Below are positions 4,025 through 18,176 of a stretch of 21,799 bases of DNA, in pieces. Each line of letters begins with the position of its first letter. Position 1 is the stretch's first letter. The notes beneath the pieces were generated by a model. The model did not search any database and was not told the DNA's origin. It saw nothing but the letters and a program-made list of their open reading frames with translations. Location of the stretch: IMG/VR virus record IMGVR_UViG_3300046460_000196, positions 1 through 21,799 of that record; one strand, given 5' to 3'. The DNA is from a virus. The translations under genes and the position numbers were made by a program.

Positions 4025-4353
4025 CAGTTGGACCGCCGCGGCAACTTGAAGTCAGCGAACCGATCAGCCAGATCAGCGATCTTCTTCACTCCGAGGAAGC
4101 CGATGAACACACCGGCGGCGGTGGCGAAGTTCTGCGGTAAACCGAAGTACTCGAGCAGCGGGATCAAGCCGATAGTGATCAGCGTGCAGAGCGAGGCTTC
4201 AAGAAGTGCCTGTCGTCGTGTGCCGCCACCGTAGATGATCCGCAATGCACCCACCACGAATGACAGTGCACCAGCATAGATCGTTGGCGCATGCTGGCTC
4301 AGCCACGCGAAAACGAGCAGCCAGGTGTCTGGTTTGTCGGGCATGTTTGGCAT
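4024..4353 (-). CDS. Phage holin, lambda/pyocin-type family
   Basis: 109 residues from ATG 4351-4353, chosen because GGGAGGA lies 8 nt upstream; the longer in-frame extension to 4581 has no ribosome site. Holins form membrane lesions that time lysis and let endolysin reach the wall. Sequence features of the Phage_holin_3 type family are clear: TWLLVFAWLSQHAPTIYAGA, then RIIYGGGTRRQALLEAS, then GFLGVKKIADLADRF near the C-terminus. About three hydrophobic segments (roughly 22-40, 53-70, 76-90) and a charged Lys/Arg tail (FKLPRRSN). It is the first gene before HNH and terminase, as in many Pseudomonas prophages where holin and endolysin are separated. Confidence 0.9.
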   Translation of the reverse strand: MPNMPDKPDTWLLVFAWLSQHAPTIYAGALSFVVGALRIIYGGGTRRQALLEASLCTLITIGLIPLLEYFGLPQNFATAAGVFIGFLGVKKIADLADRFADFKLPRRSN

Positions 4354-8132: not shown

Positions 8133-8820
8133 GGGCCGCCCCCCGCGAACGCATGGCCCGCAAATCGGCCAGCGCCTGATTACCGATTACCGGATTGCGC
8201 ACGGCAGCCGGCGCTGGCAACTCCGCAACCGGTACCGCTGGTAGCTGCTCGCCCATCCAGACCTTACGCACCTGCTCCATGTATCGCTTCTCGAAGCTGA
8301 GCAAACCCAGCTCGCGGCTGAGCAGCGGTAAGCTGTGAAATCCGGCAGCCGCCGTGGCGTGGTACACCGCCGGGTGAAACCACTTTGCAACGCTGCGCAT
8401 CGCCGGATGGCAATTGCGCATAGCCTGATTGAACGCCGAATCGACGCTCGGCAAGCCGATCATGTCCGGGGTTGGCACGCAGCCCTGAATGAACTTGCCC
8501 ACGCTAGGGATGAAATCTGACGGTTCGGCGCGGCAACGGATAAGGCCGATGTCGATCTGCTCCTGGGTGCAGATGCCGTTCTCGATGAACGCCTGTAGCC
8601 AGGTGGCTTTCGATTCCATGTAGGCCTTCTTGTCCGGCCACGCCTGGCGCCAAGCAGTGCGAATCGAGCGCAACTGGCGGAACAGTTGGTTGATCACCTT
8701 GCCGGTTTCGCGAGCCCGATCCTGTTGAGCCTGAACTGATACGTCGGTGGTCGCTTCGATGGACTCGCCCTGGCTGACCTTGGTGATCGCCTTGGCCGCG
8801 AGCGTGGAAACTGATCTCAT
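8125..8820 (-). CDS. Phage replication protein P-like (helicase loader)
   Basis: 231 residues from ATG 8818-8820, chosen because AAGGGG lies 6 nt upstream and the ATG overlaps the O-gene TGA; an ATG at 8841 has no ribosome site. Features fit lambda P family proteins: VINQLFRQLRSIRTAWRQAW near the N-terminus, ENGICTQEQIDIGLIRCR and the 'F.PSVGKFI..C' motif (DFIPSVGKFIQGC) in the middle. P proteins recruit the host DnaB helicase to the O-bound origin. C-terminal third is Ala/Pro-rich linker followed by a basic tail. It lies directly after the O-like origin-binding gene, the lambda order. Confidence 0.87.
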   Translation of the reverse strand: MRSVSTLAAKAITKVSQGESIEATTDVSVQAQQDRARETGKVINQLFRQLRSIRTAWRQAWPDKKAYMESKATWLQAFIENGICTQEQIDIGLIRCRAEPSDFIPSVGKFIQGCVPTPDMIGLPSVDSAFNQAMRNCHPAMRSVAKWFHPAVYHATAAAGFHSLPLLSRELGLLSFEKRYMEQVRKVWMGEQLPAVPVAELPAPAAVRNPVIGNQALADLRAMRSRGAARA

Positions 8821-9617
8821 ATCGAACCCCTTTTCATCCATTCGGTGTTGTCGTCGTCGAACTCGTCCGAATCGGCGGACGATGCATTTCCAGCAGCCTT
8901 TACTCGCTCACGCCTTACCCAGGTCGCCAATCGGAAGCACCATCCGGCAGCGCTGTCGACTGTCGCTGCCTTGGCAACGAAGAAGCCCTTGAACCCGACG
9001 AGCAGATCGACGGTCACCGAGTCATCGGGCAAACCAGCAATGGCGAGCTGATCAGCCATGGCCTTTGCTGCTGGCTGCCAAGTGGCGAACATGGAGAAGC
9101 GTTGGCGTTCATCCACCGACTCGATCGCTACCTGATCCTGCTCGGCAATCACATCGGCGATTTCGCGCTGCAGCTGCTCTTCGGTTCCTTGATGGTTAAT
9201 TGATGTATTGGGTGCAGCCGCTGCACCCCGTACTGTTCCAGGCTGCACCCCGTTCTGTTGTGAATTGCACCCCGTGGCGTCATCTGCACCCCGCTTTGCA
9301 CGGGGTGCAGGATTTGCACCCCGCGTTAGTTGTAGGTCGTAAACAACTGGGCGGCGGTCATGGCGATCGATGTGTACAGCGGCAATGGCCTGATTGCCCT
9401 TCTGGATGAGCCCGACCTTCTCCAAATCATCCAGCTTGTAGCGCACGGTGCGCTCGGACAGACCGGTGTCCTGAGCCAAGGTCGAGGCAGAAGGAAAGGC
9501 GCCAGCACCGTTCGAACCGGCGTAGTTGGCCAGACACAACAGCACGTGACGCGCACTGGAGTCTTTCAGGGATTCAGTGGGCAAAGAGAGCGCCCAAGAC
9601 ATTGCTTGGACACTCAC
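8817..9617 (-). CDS. Phage replication initiator, O-like, winged-helix N-terminus
   Basis: 266 residues with a GTG start at 9615-9617 (reads MSVQAMSWALSLPTES), which overlaps the TGA of a 42-residue frame (GTGA); GGAA is 7 nt upstream. An internal ATG at 9602 is the alternative. Residues 22-95 form a winged helix: ARHVLLCLANYAGSNG, FPSASTLAQDTGLSERTVRY, LEKVGLIQKG. Residues 98-140 are a Gly/Ala-rich linker encoded by the origin iterons. Residues 172-240 (RFSMFATWQPAA, AGLPDD, FKGFF, GWCFRLATWVRRER) look like the DnaT/DnaB-contact domain of phage primosome proteins. It should bind the iterons and, with P, load DnaB. C-terminus is acidic (SDEFDDDNTEW). Confidence 0.88.
   Translation of the reverse strand: MSVQAMSWALSLPTESLKDSSARHVLLCLANYAGSNGAGAFPSASTLAQDTGLSERTVRYKLDDLEKVGLIQKGNQAIAAVHIDRHDRRPVVYDLQLTRGANPAPRAKRGADDATGCNSQQNGVQPGTVRGAAAAPNTSINHQGTEEQLQREIADVIAEQDQVAIESVDERQRFSMFATWQPAAKAMADQLAIAGLPDDSVTVDLLVGFKGFFVAKAATVDSAAGWCFRLATWVRRERVKAAGNASSADSDEFDDDNTEWMKRGSI
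9210..9323. repeat. Phage replication origin: iterons of (C/T)TGCACCCCG inside the O gene
   Basis: Direct copies at 9221-9230, 9243-9252, 9265-9274, 9284-9293 and 9314-9323, one inverted copy at 9301-9310 and a partial inverted copy (GGGTGCAG) at 9210-9217. The first three are spaced exactly 22 bp, about two helical turns. They fall in the protein linker and are translated in more than one frame, so they are conserved as DNA, not as peptide. This is the lambda arrangement, in which O protein binds iterons in its own gene. Confidence 0.85.
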
Positions 9618-9742
9618 AGCGAGGTTCCAACATTGAGTGCGGTAGCCTCGCGTGAGGACATGGTGTGACACGACACCTTTTGCGATTGCCCCAAAAGTGT
9701 CGCGACATGGTGGGTATTGCCGAGAGTAACGATGCTGTTCAT
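9614..9742 (-). CDS. Small coupled gene upstream of O (42 residues), possibly an antirepressor remnant
   Basis: An ATG at 9740-9742 with GAGGGG 5 nt upstream opens a 42-residue frame whose TGA overlaps the GTG of the O gene. The start MNSIVTLGN and the later HTMSSRE recall the N-terminus of Rha/antirepressor-type phage proteins, which often begin MNS(L/I)VTLG and continue TMSSREIAEL. Here the DNA-binding part is missing, so this may be a remnant now used as a translational leader, or an independent small protein. The ribosome site and coupling are good; the family link is tentative. Confidence 0.45.
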   Translation of the reverse strand: MNSIVTLGNTHHVATLLGQSQKVSCHTMSSREATALNVGTSL

Positions 9743-9772
9743 AATGGCCCCTCAGTGTTTTACGTTGTAAAG

Positions 9773-9799
9773 AAGCCGGTCTAGCCACCGGCTTTTTTG
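9773..9799 (+). terminator. Terminator-like hairpin upstream of O
   Basis: AAGCCGGT at 9773-9780 pairs with ACCGGCTT at 9787-9794, followed by TTTTG on the plus strand. No plus-strand gene ends here. On the minus strand the stem is followed by only CTTTAC, so it would be a leaky stop in the PR operon, comparable in place to lambda tR1 (after cro/cII region). Confidence 0.55.
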
Positions 9800-10019: not shown

Positions 10020-10442
10020 TCAAGCGACCTTCACCGACTGCTCCATCACGTCCAGCTCGTTCCGGACATGCTCGATTTCTTTGCGGATACCCTGCTTCTC
10101 GATCTGGCTGACGTGCCCGTCGTCGAGAGCCGAGTGCACCGCGATAGTCAGGTCAGCGATTTCTTTGCCGACGTTCATCATCGAAGCAGTGAGCGTCTTC
10201 GGGGCCGGGGCTTCCTTTTTCACCAGGTCGAAACCGAACTGACCAGCCAAGGCAGCGAGCGGGCGCATATCGCCGGTATGCAGCAGAATCCCGAACAGAT
10301 GCTCGATGGTGAGGTGGTGGGCGTCGTTATCCGGGTTCGCACGCTGCAGCAGGCTCACGTGCGGAACACCCATTTGGCCGGCAAGCACCTTCGCCTCGTT
10401 GTCCAGGACTGCGCTTTGGCAAGCCCGCAGGAATTCGTCCAT
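10020..10442 (-). CDS. Phage regulatory protein, CII/CP76 family
   Basis: 140 residues, ATG at 10442 with GAGGG 7 nt upstream. The N-terminal half matches the Phage_CP76 (CII-type) pattern: EAKVLAGQMGVPHVSLLQRA (helix-turn-helix, about 16-35), NPDNDAHHLTIEHLFGILLH, then PLAALAGQFGFDLV. The C-terminal half is a likely coiled coil. It is the second gene of the PR operon, after cro and before O, the position of lambda cII. CII activates the repressor-establishment promoter in lambda; in this family the target is not shown by sequence. Confidence 0.87.
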   Translation of the reverse strand: MDEFLRACQSAVLDNEAKVLAGQMGVPHVSLLQRANPDNDAHHLTIEHLFGILLHTGDMRPLAALAGQFGFDLVKKEAPAPKTLTASMMNVGKEIADLTIAVHSALDDGHVSQIEKQGIRKEIEHVRNELDVMEQSVKVA

Positions 10443-10518: not shown

Positions 10519-10713
10519 TTACGCAGCCGTGCTTTGAGACGGAAACGGGCGGATTTCCTCCGCGGTAAAGGTTCCATCCGCATGCTCAATTACTTGGATG
10601 TCTCGCTCCGCTTTCAAAGCTTTAGAGATCGCCGGAGAGCTGACGCCAAGAGCCTTGGCGACGGCGGTCTGCCCCATCCTCTCGACCAACAATGGCAATG
10701 GCGTCTTCTTCAT
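10519..10713 (-). CDS. cro: Cro-type repressor
   Basis: 64 residues. The core MGQTAVAKALGVSSPAISKA (about 13-32) is a helix-turn-helix of the Cro family, and the C-terminal segment IEHADGTFTAEEIRPF resembles the dimerising strand of Cro proteins. It is the first gene from PR and divergent from cI, with the shared operators between them. Cro shuts off early transcription and favours lytic growth. No strong ribosome site is visible upstream of the ATG. Confidence 0.9.
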   Translation of the reverse strand: MKKTPLPLLVERMGQTAVAKALGVSSPAISKALKAERDIQVIEHADGTFTAEEIRPFPSQSTAA

Positions 10714-10747: not shown

Positions 10748-10776
10748 ATATTAACCGCCGGTTAGTTTTCAGGCAA
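10748..10776 (-). promoter_or_regulatory. PR-like promoter of cro
   Basis: On the minus strand TTGCCT (complement of 10771-10776), 17-bp spacer, TATA box TAATAT (complement of 10748-10753). Operators 10751-10765 and 10775-10789 cover the -10 and -35 boxes, so CI or Cro binding would block it. Start of transcription expected near 10741. Confidence 0.8.
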
Positions 10777-10814
10777 TACCGCCGGTTAGCGCAAATAACT
10801 TAACCAACGGTTAA
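10751..10814. promoter_or_regulatory. Right operator region: three copies of a TTAACCG-C-CGGTTAA-like operator
   Basis: TTAACCGCCGGTTAG at 10751-10765, AATACCGCCGGTTAG at 10775-10789 and TTAACCAACGGTTAA at 10800-10814. Start-to-start spacing is 24 and 25 bp. The third, most divergent copy lies 9 bp before the cI start codon and probably sets cI autoregulation, like lambda OR3. I could not assign the cI maintenance promoter boxes with confidence; cI also has no good ribosome site, so its maintenance mRNA may have a very short leader. Confidence 0.88.
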
Positions 10815-10823
10815 ATTTCACGG

Positions 10824-11696
10824 ATGAGCAAAAAGAAAGAGTTATCCCCCGAGCTGAAAGCTGAGTGCGACGCTGCCAAGGCGCTTTTCGTATCGAAAAA
10901 GAACGCGCTCGGCCTCACACAAGCGAGTCTTGCTGAGGCTGCGGACATTTCGGCGGCTGCCGTCGCGATGTACCTGAACGGCACAAATCCGCTGAATGCG
11001 AAATTCGCCGCAGTGCTCTCGCGCCTACTTGGCGTGCCGGTTGAGAAATTCAGCAAACGGCTCGCCAAAGAGATCAGCGGCCTGACAACCACTGCAGATC
11101 AGGCTACCGAGCTCGGATCGAATGCTTCGGCCGCCGACCTGGTCAGACAGATGCTAGCGAGACAAGGGAAAAGTCTTTCTGAGGACGCGAGAAGACGCCT
11201 GCTCGCTGCGGCCGAATCAGACGATGGCGGTGGAGTGCTCGACGTTGACTATTACCGACCAGGCGTCGTCGGTGACGAGGTATGGATTGCGCATTACGAC
11301 GTCCGAGCAGCTATGGGTGGCGGGCAAATACCACACGACTATCCAGAGTTACTTCAGGACGTGAGGGTAAGTCCTCAACACCTGCGCGAGATGGGCGTCG
11401 AGTTCAAAGAGCACTTTCACCTCAAGATGGTCACAGGCTGGGGTCAATCGATGGCGCCCACAATCAAGCACCGCGACCCGCTCCTAGTCGACATCAGCAT
11501 TCGCGAGTTCGTGGGGGATGGGATTTACATGTTCTCTTGGGAAGGCCACCTGTACATCAAACGTCTTCAGTGGATCGGTGATGATCATATCAAGATGATT
11601 TCCGATAACACGAGACATCCGCCGCAAACCATCAGGGCCGATGAGACGTTCATCCAGGCGCGGGTGCTACTGGTTTGGAACGCGCACTTGGTCTGA
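10824..11696 (+). CDS. cI: CI-type prophage repressor (XRE helix-turn-helix plus S24 domain)
   Basis: 290 residues. N-terminal XRE helix-turn-helix about 15-75 (KNALGLTQASLAEAADISAA, then YLNGTNPLNAKFAAVLSRLL). A linker follows, then a LexA-like S24 domain with S209 (GWGQSMAPTI) and K246 (LYIKRLQ), the Ser-Lys dyad. The region where the cleavage site should lie reads VRAAMGGGQIP (about 161-170): neither Ala-Gly nor Cys-Gly. RecA-driven self-cleavage is therefore doubtful. It keeps the prophage silent through the operators at 10751-10814 and 13624-13662. It is followed by three small genes and a terminator at 12577, likely one lysogenic operon. Confidence 0.93.
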   Translation: MSKKKELSPELKAECDAAKALFVSKKNALGLTQASLAEAADISAAAVAMYLNGTNPLNAKFAAVLSRLLGVPVEKFSKRLAKEISGLTTTADQATELGSNASAADLVRQMLARQGKSLSEDARRRLLAAAESDDGGGVLDVDYYRPGVVGDEVWIAHYDVRAAMGGGQIPHDYPELLQDVRVSPQHLREMGVEFKEHFHLKMVTGWGQSMAPTIKHRDPLLVDISIREFVGDGIYMFSWEGHLYIKRLQWIGDDHIKMISDNTRHPPQTIRADETFIQARVLLVWNAHLV

Positions 11697-13241: not shown

Positions 13242-13553
13242 TCAGAAAGGAGCGACCTCCTCCACCGGCTCTAGCACTTCAACCGGCCGATCTTCCTCGG
13301 CGCTCGCCTCCCACTTCAGCGTCACTGACTCGTCGTCGTTGAACGTCATGTCTATGCCGTCGGTCTCGGATAGCAAGCACATAACCTCCTCCCACTCGCG
13401 ATCGCCGTCCGTGTCTAGGCGATGAATCGTTACCCAGCGCTGAATCTGCGCAACCGGGTGATTGATCATTGATGAGACGCGCAGCCCAAGCCTCTCTATC
13501 CCGCTGACTTCCCGTCGCGCTACTGGTTTTTCCTGCTTATTTGGCTTCGCCAT
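13242..13553 (-). CDS. DUF1654-family protein under a LexA box; candidate SOS-controlled antirepressor
   Basis: 103 residues from ATG 13551-13553 (MAKPNKQEKPVARREVSGIE), selected because GGAGG lies 5 nt upstream. The core (SGIERLGLRVSSMINHPVAQ, then VTIHRLD, EWEEVMCLLSETDGIDMTFN, ESVTLKW) matches the DUF1654 pattern known almost only from Pseudomonas and its phages; its biochemical role is not established. The C-terminus is acidic (EPVEEVAPF). The gene faces away from PL, and a LexA box sits 16-31 nt upstream of the start. Position between cI operon and left operators, plus DNA-damage control, suggests a role in prophage induction. Confidence 0.85.
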   Translation of the reverse strand: MAKPNKQEKPVARREVSGIERLGLRVSSMINHPVAQIQRWVTIHRLDTDGDREWEEVMCLLSETDGIDMTFNDDESVTLKWEASAEEDRPVEVLEPVEEVAPF

Positions 13554-13568
13554 CACTGCCTCCAATCA

Positions 13569-13584
13569 CTGTATATGCATCCAG
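13569..13584. promoter_or_regulatory. LexA (SOS) box upstream of the DUF1654 gene
   Basis: CTGTATATGCATCCAG: exact CTG-N10-CAG with an AT-rich 5' half, close to the Pseudomonas consensus CTGTATAAATATACAG. On the minus strand it overlaps a TATACA that could be the -10 box of the DUF1654 promoter (no strong -35 box), so bound LexA would block transcription and DNA damage would release it. Confidence 0.75.
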
Positions 13585-13623
13585 CTGTCGCCAAAGCATA
13601 CGCCATCCCCTGCGAGAAATAAA

Positions 13624-13662
13624 TTAACCGGCGGTATTGACTATAAATATACCGCCGGTTAA
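13624..13662. promoter_or_regulatory. Left operator pair (same 15-mer as at cI/cro)
   Basis: TTAACCGGCGGTATT at 13624-13638 is the inverse of AATACCGCCGGTTAA; TATACCGCCGGTTAA lies at 13648-13662. Both match the operator 15-mer of the cI-cro region and are spaced 24 bp as there. They cover the -35 and -10 boxes of the PL-like promoter. CI bound here and at 10751-10814 could also loop the 2.8 kb between, as in lambda. Confidence 0.88.
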
Positions 13663-15204: not shown

Positions 15205-15477
15205 ATGCATCCATCCATTCAACAGCGAGTCGACGGGGTTGCCGCCCTGCGTGCTCGTGCAAGCATCGCCACCGCCGCGTTCTACGCCTTGATCGGCCAG
15301 GCATCACCCGCGCAGAAGATTCGCTTCCAGGTGAAGACTGTCGGGCCGAAGGCGTACCACATCGTTGACCTGGTCACCGGCAAGACCTGCGGCTTTCGCT
15401 TCGAACACGCGGCCGCCGTCGACTACGCCATTCAGCTCGAGGAAAAGGCCAACCGCCTGCCGAGAGGTGCGAAATGA
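15205..15477 (+). CDS. Conserved small phage protein, unknown function
   Basis: 90 residues; GAGGAA 5 nt before the ATG. The N-terminal half is helical and Ala-rich (RVDGVAALRARASIATAAFY), the C-terminal half predicts strands (VKTVGPKAYHIVDLVTGKTC, GFRFEHAAAVDYAIQLEE). The pattern 'Y.I.D..TGK..GF...H..A..YA..LE' is a typical small early protein of Pseudomonas prophages. It overlaps the next start (ATGA). Confidence 0.72.
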   Translation: MHPSIQQRVDGVAALRARASIATAAFYALIGQASPAQKIRFQVKTVGPKAYHIVDLVTGKTCGFRFEHAAAVDYAIQLEEKANRLPRGAK

Positions 15478-17252: not shown

Positions 17253-18176
17253 ATGCCTACAGCAATCGATTTGTTCGCCGGGCTCGGCGGATGGTCAACC
17301 GGTGCCCGCAATGCAGGTATCGACGTTCTTTGGGCCGCTAATCACTGGCCGGTCGCGGTTGAGTGGCACAGCGCCAACCACCCGAACACACAACACGTCT
17401 GCCAAGATCTGCACCAGGCGCAATGGGATAAAGTGCCAGCCCACGATCTACTGCTGGCCTCCCCATGCTGCCAGGGGCACTCGAAAGCTCGTGGTAAGAA
17501 GTCGGGAAACCCGCAGCACGATTCCTCGCGCTCGACAGCGTGGGCAGTAGTGTCGGCGTTGGAGTTTCACCGGCCTGAAGCAGGACTGGTAGAAAACGTC
17601 GAAGAGTTCACCGACTGGGCGCTGTACCCGGCCTGGGTCGCGGCAGTGCAGGCGCTGGGCTACCAAGTCGCGCCCCACGTCGTGGACTGCGCTGACTTGG
17701 GCGTGCCGCAACACCGCGTCCGACTATTCTTGGTCCTGACCCGCAGCAAGGCGCCGCTGATGCTCGAACTGCACCGGCGCCAGCACGTCCCTGCTGCCAG
17801 CTTCCTCAACTTCGACGCCGGGCGCTGGTCCCCCATCGAGAAGCCGGGGCGGGCTCAGGCCACGCTGGAACGTGTGCGCAATGGCCGCGAGCGCTTCGGC
17901 GAGCGCTTCATCATGCCTTACTATGGCAAGGGCTCTGGGCTGACTGGCCGTGACATCAACCGGCCCATTGGCACTATCACCACCTTGGACCGCTGGGCGC
18001 TGGTGAACGGCGACCGCATGCGGATGCTCAGCGCTGACGAAGCTCTGACTGCTCAGTCATTCCCGGCTGATATCCTGCGCCCGGATAACCACCGCATGAC
18101 CATGCACCTAGCCGGCAATGCGGTACCACCCTTGGCCGGGCAACGGATTATAGAAGCTCTAATAGTTGCTGCATGA
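17253..18176 (+). CDS. DNA cytosine-C5 methyltransferase (orphan)
   Basis: 307 residues. All main C5-MTase motifs are visible: motif I DLFAGLGGWSTGA (6-18, AdoMet binding), motif IV SPCCQGHS (P71-C72, catalytic Cys), motif VI ENVEE (114-118), motif VIII QHRVRLF (153-159) and motif X GNAVPP (288-293). The target-recognition region between about 165 and 255 is short, fitting a compact phage enzyme. CGAGG is 7 nt before the ATG. It uses GC-rich codons like the phage core, unlike its two AT-rich neighbours. No restriction enzyme is recognisable nearby, so it is probably an orphan that protects phage DNA from host restriction or alters expression. Confidence 0.93.
   Translation: MPTAIDLFAGLGGWSTGARNAGIDVLWAANHWPVAVEWHSANHPNTQHVCQDLHQAQWDKVPAHDLLLASPCCQGHSKARGKKSGNPQHDSSRSTAWAVVSALEFHRPEAGLVENVEEFTDWALYPAWVAAVQALGYQVAPHVVDCADLGVPQHRVRLFLVLTRSKAPLMLELHRRQHVPAASFLNFDAGRWSPIEKPGRAQATLERVRNGRERFGERFIMPYYGKGSGLTGRDINRPIGTITTLDRWALVNGDRMRMLSADEALTAQSFPADILRPDNHRMTMHLAGNAVPPLAGQRIIEALIVAA

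Follow-up and report, generated by a model that had tools for sequence, protein, structure and literature searches.

The repressors of the Gifsy prophages, which are 136 residues long and carry no cleavage motif, are described in PMC3121763 as remaining uncleaved and as being inactivated by small, LexA-controlled antirepressors, the gene for which lies outside the immunity region. By the same account, Tum of coliphage 186 is also controlled by LexA and binds its repressor, being a protein of 146 residues with a DinI-like second half, and AntC of the phage-plasmid N15 is cited both there and in PMC10432266 as a LexA-controlled antirepressor. In the TF-smORF modules of vibriophages, as presented in PMC10432266, a small protein inactivates CI without proteolysis and independently of the SOS response.

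Here we analyzed a 21.8-kb virus record with a lambda-like immunity region (21,799 nucleotides; the whole stretch is hereafter designated the window). An earlier note on this DNA had put forward a DUF1654 gene of the immunity region as the source of a LexA-released protein inactivating the CI repressor. Because its LexA switch is nearly constant and its position is opposite the CI gene, DUF1654 appears from sequence comparisons to be the leading candidate for the protein by which a large group of Pseudomonas viruses is roused from dormancy.

Results

The DUF1654 gene and its product

The DUF1654 gene occupies positions 13,242–13,553 on the minus strand (ATG at 13,553, stop at 13,242) and encodes an acidic protein of 103 residues (pI about 4.5), the proposed LexA-released inactivator of CI. 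The protein matched the DUF1654 profile PF07867 with an E-value of 2.5e-24 and a score of 85.2 bits (cut-off, 27), and also matched phrog_2707 (E 1.1e-35). This match, together with the ribosome-binding site GGAGG read from the minus strand at 13,559–13,563, confirms the gene with a strong ribosome site that had been reported from the letters of the sequence. DUF1654 was the sole Pfam family found, DinI being absent from the matches at E-values up to 0.1, and a sequence search of the PDB gave no relative at E-values up to 1. The AlphaFold2 model had a mean pLDDT of 76, rising to about 90 for residues 21–80, with a core of alpha-alpha-beta-alpha-beta-beta topology. Foldseek returned nothing below 0.001 for this model in either the PDB or BFVD, and the top VIA score, a Z of 6.5 to Smr and R3H-like domains, is of a size common among unrelated folds. 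DUF1654 is named in PMC13028781, where its function is given as unknown; in the literature on LexA, antirepressors, prophages, and Pseudomonas, searched mostly at the title level, no title on DUF1654 was found. Elsewhere in the window, the ORF at 17,253–18,176 reads like a cytosine DNA methyltransferase gene (DLFAGLGG and SPCCQGHS motifs).

Conservation of the LexA-type box upstream of DUF1654

An exact CTG-N10-CAG box, CTGTATATGCATCCAG, is located at 13,569–13,584, between the left operator candidates and the DUF1654 start and 16–31 nt from the latter, as the earlier note had stated. The form of the box by itself carries no meaning, since eight such boxes are found in the window against 8.01 expected. 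When scored against CTGTATATATATACAG, the DUF1654 box reached 13 of 16, and the runner-up among the eight reached 10. In one Pseudomonas genome, the boxes at the lexA locus scored 13 and 12 and that of recA scored 12; a second lexA-like gene of this genome had no box. Across 80 related loci (871 kb), 80 of the 90 boxes scoring at least 12 directly precede DUF1654. Among control ORFs, namely mechanical ORFs of at least 80 residues from the first 80 loci, not all of which are genes, the 100 bp upstream contained any such box in 128 of 2,983 cases and a box scoring at least 12 in 7 of 2,983.

The exact box was found just upstream of DUF1654 in 80/80 viral loci (the best 80 of 451 relatives), in all 19 named phage regions (taken from 51 phage records with a match), in 79/80 bacterial-genome loci (the best 80 of 91), and in all nine additional viral loci (L181–L189). 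Altogether, 187 of the 188 loci have a box at this position; these loci comprise several, partly overlapping sets and were hence counted also by distinct protein, giving 165/166. Excluded from the 188 were L190–L195, which are 33–35% matches (L190 lies inside a much longer, unrelated frame). In the sole exception, L123, the 5' part of DUF1654 is lost together with its start and the box. The LKA5 record, furthermore, carries software-predicted LexA sites ahead of its DUF1654 gene.

A chance origin of the box, considered in view of its chance-level form in the window, is ruled out because the box is conserved across related loci. Such conservation in homologous loci had been named beforehand as a test of the proposal. 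A box that lies in the promoter and is conserved among orthologues, as is expected of a LexA-regulon member, is therefore present, and LexA control, as it had been proposed, is strongly supported by these sequences. DUF1654 is a candidate for a LexA-repressed, damage-induced gene.

Two features of individual loci were observed in addition. In L123 (5,700–6,300), DUF1654 is fused in frame to a stretch that resembles an integrase gene read on its reverse strand. In six loci (L004, L009, L015, L040, L053, and L080), a second high-scoring CTG-N10-CAG box, the identical CTGTAAGTATAACCAG, lies between DUF1654 and CI, roughly 1 kb downstream from the start of DUF1654.

Reciprocal pairing of DUF1654 with CI

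Among 160 viral and genome loci, CI was detected in 150, and in all 150 it lies downstream of DUF1654 in convergent orientation, at a distance of 41–4,795 bp. Of the ten loci without CI, six contain 1.6–4.3 kb downstream of DUF1654 and four (L014, L054, L055, and L139) about 6.3 kb; on the contigs of L054 and L055, DUF1654 is 5.8 kb from CI (L205 and L213), which is too close to the edge of the locus for detection. The constant convergent order would suit a LexA-controlled transcript that acts as an antisense RNA running into cI, the protein itself being dispensable, but the gap of up to 4.8 kb, the terminators annotated between DUF1654 and CI in the LKA5 record, and the conservation of the DUF1654 protein make such an explanation extremely improbable.

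When the search was reversed and started from CI (the best 80 of 474 viral loci), an opposite-strand DUF1654 was found downstream in 70/80, and the ten CI loci without it all contain at most 2.9 kb past CI. In 68 of these 70 loci, a box scoring at least 12 precedes the gene, although in L238 the frame that follows is a shortened DUF1654; the other two are L226, where the contig edge is reached, and L200, where a single base of the box is changed. Genes of the cI–OL region are often accessory, and DUF1654, a family with no assigned function, could on that ground be SOS-controlled cargo serving exclusion, defence, or repair. Accessory genes come and go, however, whereas DUF1654 is missing from no viral CI locus that extends more than 2.9 kb past CI, and the genes separating it from CI differ from one named record to another, so that we regard a cargo role as very unlikely.

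The pairing was also seen in 119 bacterial genomes, drawn from the genus group to which one Pseudomonas genome, selected for its prophage, belongs. Strong DUF1654 matches in these genomes had CI within 12 kb in 39 of 41 cases, all 39 being convergent; the two without CI are a match at the beginning of a contig (G087:C20) and an incomplete one in G032. Conversely, the best 49 CI matches had a strong DUF1654 within 12 kb in 39 cases and none in ten, among which are a 249-residue S24 repressor type and one full-length CI with an altered motif (L322).

Promoter and operator candidates

On the minus strand upstream of the box, the -10-like hexamer TATGCT (13,595–13,600) is a candidate for the DUF1654 promoter, and TATGCT or TATAGT-like hexamers are common in relatives near the same offset from the box. 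A weak -35-like hexamer, TTTATT (13,618–13,623, minus strand), may go with it at a distance of 17 nt; a strict sigma-70 promoter scan found no promoter for DUF1654. Beyond these hexamers are two left CI/Cro operator candidates, TTAACCGGCGGTA (13,624–13,636) and TACCGCCGGTTAA (13,650–13,662), which share a motif with the three right operator candidates at 10,751, 10,777, and 10,800 (spanning 10,751–10,814) between CI and Cro. Cro (10,519–10,713, minus strand; PF09048, E 1.3e-21) is accompanied by a CII-like regulator of the Phage_CP76 type (10,020–10,442, minus strand; PF06892, E 1.3e-26). Judged by this resemblance to the CI–Cro sites, the left operators that had been noted beside DUF1654 appear to be real.

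Operator-like palindromes at the DUF1654 promoter matched those between CI and Cro in 80/157 loci, as compared with a mean of 0.65 and a maximum of 3 in 20 shuffles and with 3/147 for a region 1 kb away. We also considered activation of the DUF1654 promoter by CI bound to an operator at about -42, the geometry of lambda OR2–PRM. This arrangement fits the window but is not general, because the position of the operator relative to the DUF1654 promoter differs among the loci.

Covariation of DUF1654 with parts of CI

CI is encoded on the plus strand at 10,824–11,696 and consists, over 290 residues, of a helix-turn-helix (HTH) domain, a helical linker, and an S24 C-terminal domain with Ser209 and Lys246 (PF01381 and PF00717). 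Distances between DUF1654 proteins correlated with those between the CI linkers (r 0.52) and C-terminal domains (0.53) and less with those between the N-terminal domains (0.21; n = 137). In a joint regression, the weights were 0.31 for the linker, 0.34 for the C-terminal domain, and 0.01 for the N-terminal domain (n = 137), and pairwise partial correlations were 0.51 for the C-terminal and 0.11 for the N-terminal domain, both exceeding permutation. Control genes showed lower correlations with the CI C-terminal domain: 0.22 for CII (n = 54) and 0.06 each for the replication gene at 8,817–9,788 (n = 51) and the gene at 15,205–15,477 (n = 58). Linkage or common ancestry may add to the covariation between DUF1654 and CI. 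These patterns make the DNA-binding domain the less likely target of DUF1654. The median pairwise identity of CI is 22% for N-terminal and 72% for C-terminal domains; as the association of DUF1654 with the rest of CI persists across such diverse DNA-binding domains, a single adaptor could act in phages of many immunity types.

The C-terminal domain as the sole target, our initial reading, lost support. The linker covaries equally (0.52 versus 0.53), and in phage PotUPM1 (L090, 2,063–2,873) DUF1654 adjoins a 164-residue repressor that keeps the HTH and the linker and has no S24 domain, so that the target in this phage must lie, at least in part, outside the C-terminal domain. Judging from these comparisons, the linker may matter as much as the C-terminal domain. 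A linker motif of the AADxVRxML type was tried as a mark of DUF1654 phages and not adopted; by one strict pattern, it occurred in 85/157 DUF1654-linked CIs and in 0/11 CIs from the loci L276–L281 and L318–L322.

The cleavage-site position of CI

The claim that this S24 repressor contains the motif VRAAMGGGQIP in place of an Ala-Gly or Cys-Gly site was borne out by the CI sequence, which has no A-G or C-G anywhere. In an alignment of 145 CIs, restricted to those of 240–310 residues, the Ala-Gly position of cleavable S24 repressors corresponds to Met164-Gly165 (codons at 11,313–11,318, plus strand). The P1 residue is Met in 135, Leu in 5, and Ala in 5 (Met or Leu in 140), and Gly follows in 145/145. 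Thus, among the features of a self-cleaving S24 repressor, the window CI has the HTH and S24 domains and the Ser-Lys dyad and lacks Ala-Gly or Cys-Gly. Ser209, Lys246, and Gly165 are invariant in 65/65 aligned CIs. The unchanging dyad is a hint that cleavage chemistry remains in use, as an inactive protease would hardly be expected to preserve it; on the sequence evidence, it leaves room for cleavage of CI by another trigger. Confidence in the structure model of CI is low near Met-Gly, and no conclusion is drawn from this model.

These observations would be compatible with DUF1654 acting as a co-protease in place of RecA: once bound to CI, it would drive the Met-Gly bond into the Ser-Lys site, whereupon CI would cut itself. 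The invariance of Ser209, Lys246, and Gly165, the near-invariance of the Met, and the pairing and covariation of DUF1654 with the linker and C-terminal domain of CI all fit this scheme. The cleavage site of the S24 family is, on the other hand, given in PMC8565304 as Ala-Gly, or Cys-Gly in UmuD. The repressor of PotUPM1 has no S24 domain to cut itself with, and the dyad could be retained for structure. We know of no S24 protein cleaved with Met at P1, and consider self-cleavage prompted by DUF1654 unlikely.

A CI motif was read in 17 of the 19 named DUF1654 phages, being Met-Gly in 11 and Ala-Ala-Gly in six (F116, H66, LKA5, LESphi3, TC7, and D14E); of the remaining two, PotUPM1 has the repressor without an S24 domain, and YMC11/07/P54 gave no CI by profile. 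Met-Gly CIs without DUF1654 occur in Marin and UFJF_PfDIW6, and Met-Gly repressors without DUF1654 in the examined stretches of L319–L321. In BTP1, PhiR5_1, Mannheimia 587AP2, and Fels-1, whose CIs are more distant, the site is Ala-Gly. LESphi3 is reported to be inducible by norfloxacin (PMC3544612); with an Ala-Gly CI, it is inducible and keeps DUF1654, which is therefore not explained by loss of the site. A strict rule that a Met-Gly CI needs DUF1654 is broken in both directions, and Met-Gly and DUF1654 are associated in most, not all, cases. The argument that CI is uncleavable and so needs an antirepressor is supported in part, by the prevalence of Met at P1 (135/145), and is weakened by the invariant dyad and by the exceptions both ways.

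Further LexA-type boxes were seen in three of the named records. An identical box precedes a conserved gene for 96 residues in those of Marin (4,214–4,229; L282) and LESphi3 (1,970–1,985; L283), the latter gene adjoining integrase and excisionase genes, and in that of F116 a second strong box, CTGTATGAATATACAG (63,576–63,591; L284), lies before orf69, near the integrase.

The wider DUF1654 family in Pseudomonas

DUF1654 was matched in 102 of the 119 genomes, most of the matches listed being of a more distant, core-chromosome type. Matches were found in 17/59 genomes drawn from the family, 4/145 from the order (three over the cut-off), and 0/14 control genomes. Seven core-chromosome loci examined (L285, L287, and L323–L327) have a LexA-type box scoring 11 or 12 at the gene start; in L285 (4,670–5,669), the gene lies between an asparaginase-like gene, so assigned by reading, and endonuclease I (PF04231). 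In further loci, some of which repeat earlier ones, a box scoring at least 11 was found in 54 of 58 DUF1654 entries, that is, in 51 of 55 places, three places having been counted twice. Divergent copies in L286 and L318 had no LexA-type box. In a FastTree tree, read without support values, the CI-linked copies form one clade and the core copies another, and DUF1654 from the Ala-Gly phages is nested within the CI-linked clade. In genome G161 (L342, L343, and L344), a single contig bears seven matches; LexA-type boxes were found at each of the six copies examined, one of which is convergent with a CI.

No CI was found in the examined stretches around the core-chromosome copies, which suggests that the first role of the family may be something else. 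Such LexA-boxed copies without a neighboring CI would be accounted for if RecA cleaved CI normally, even at Met-Gly, and DUF1654 were a separate SOS-early gene modulating RecA, LexA, or another host function in the manner of DinI. The invariant Ser-Lys dyad and the retention of DUF1654 beside Ala-Gly CIs in F116-like and LESphi3-like phages are in line with this account. It leaves unexplained why prophage DUF1654 lies opposite CI, why no viral CI locus extending more than 2.9 kb past CI lacks it, and why it covaries with the linker and C-terminal domain; nor did DUF1654 match DinI in Pfam. We give this account little probability.

Met-Gly S24 repressors (SMGHG or SMGYG) also adjoin PrtN-like pyocin-activator genes (PF11112) in L318–L320, the first of which is the locus with a divergent, box-less DUF1654. 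A general SOS-to-repressor relay of Pseudomonas can be imagined, in which Met-Gly S24 repressors answer to LexA-released DUF1654 and not to RecA directly, the prophage copy acting on the adjacent CI and a LexA-boxed core copy acting in trans on the Met-Gly repressors beside PrtN-like genes. This extension is tentative and, in our estimation, rather doubtful; if true, it would link DNA damage, prophages, and bacteriocins through one adaptor family.

Discussion

The DUF1654 gene is real, is strongly conserved together with its LexA-type box, and is tied to a distinctive class of repressor. We propose, with a probability of roughly 0.6, that DUF1654 is an SOS-released inactivator of the phage repressor CI. 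The proposal starts from what is observed at the sequence level, namely the gene, the box and its conservation, the pairing and orientation with CI, the covariation, the operator-like sites, and the Met-Gly motif. The antirepressor role suggested in the earlier note is thereby supported indirectly, through the reciprocal pairing with CI, the fixed convergent order, and the covariation with the part of CI that does not bind DNA; the binding to CI and the induction are what we infer. A putative antirepressor role is the best explanation of these data.

In a lysogen, host LexA would occupy the box, probably over the transcription start, and silence DUF1654. Upon DNA damage, RecA would trigger the self-cleavage of LexA, and DUF1654 would be made. 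The protein would then bind the linker and the C-terminal domain of CI and break its dimers or oligomers, CI would leave the right and left operators, and lytic transcription would begin. Self-cutting of CI, with Met-Gly and not Ala-Gly at the scissile bond, would be unnecessary in such a sequence of events.

If true, the proposal would provide a function for DUF1654, a domain present in most of the genomes sampled from one Pseudomonas genus group (102/119), and would account for the damage response of those Pseudomonas prophages, a large class, whose cleavage site is altered. It would also mean that repressors with S24 domains can be released by an adaptor rather than by RecA. One adaptor for phages with unrelated operators would predict cross-induction among the prophages within one cell.

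The window CI has the HTH and S24 domains, the Ser-Lys dyad, and the presumed SOS coupling in common with the self-cleaving lambda CI and LexA, and differs from them in having Met-Gly, not Ala-Gly, at the scissile position. DUF1654 is likened to Tum, AntC, and the Gifsy antirepressors by its presumed mode of action, family kinship having been judged by Pfam only. LexA-type control is shared with Tum as portrayed in PMC3121763, DUF1654 being shorter (103 versus 146 residues) and without a DinI match in Pfam. LexA control is likewise common to AntC and DUF1654, although N15 is another type of phage, the repressor of which is described in PMC10432266 as non-proteolytic. The TF-smORF modules, in the description of the same paper, differ in being SOS-independent, whereas LexA-type control is indicated here. 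A parallel is offered by GfoA and GfhA of the Gifsy prophages of Salmonella, as described in PMC3121763; like them, DUF1654 is a small, LexA-controlled phage protein, proposed here to free the prophage through inactivation of its repressor. Unlike the Gifsy prophages, the window encodes a complete S24 repressor that retains the dyad, and its DUF1654 gene lies beside the left operators. According to the same source, the Gifsy antirepressors act on more than one immunity type, and DUF1654 could do likewise.
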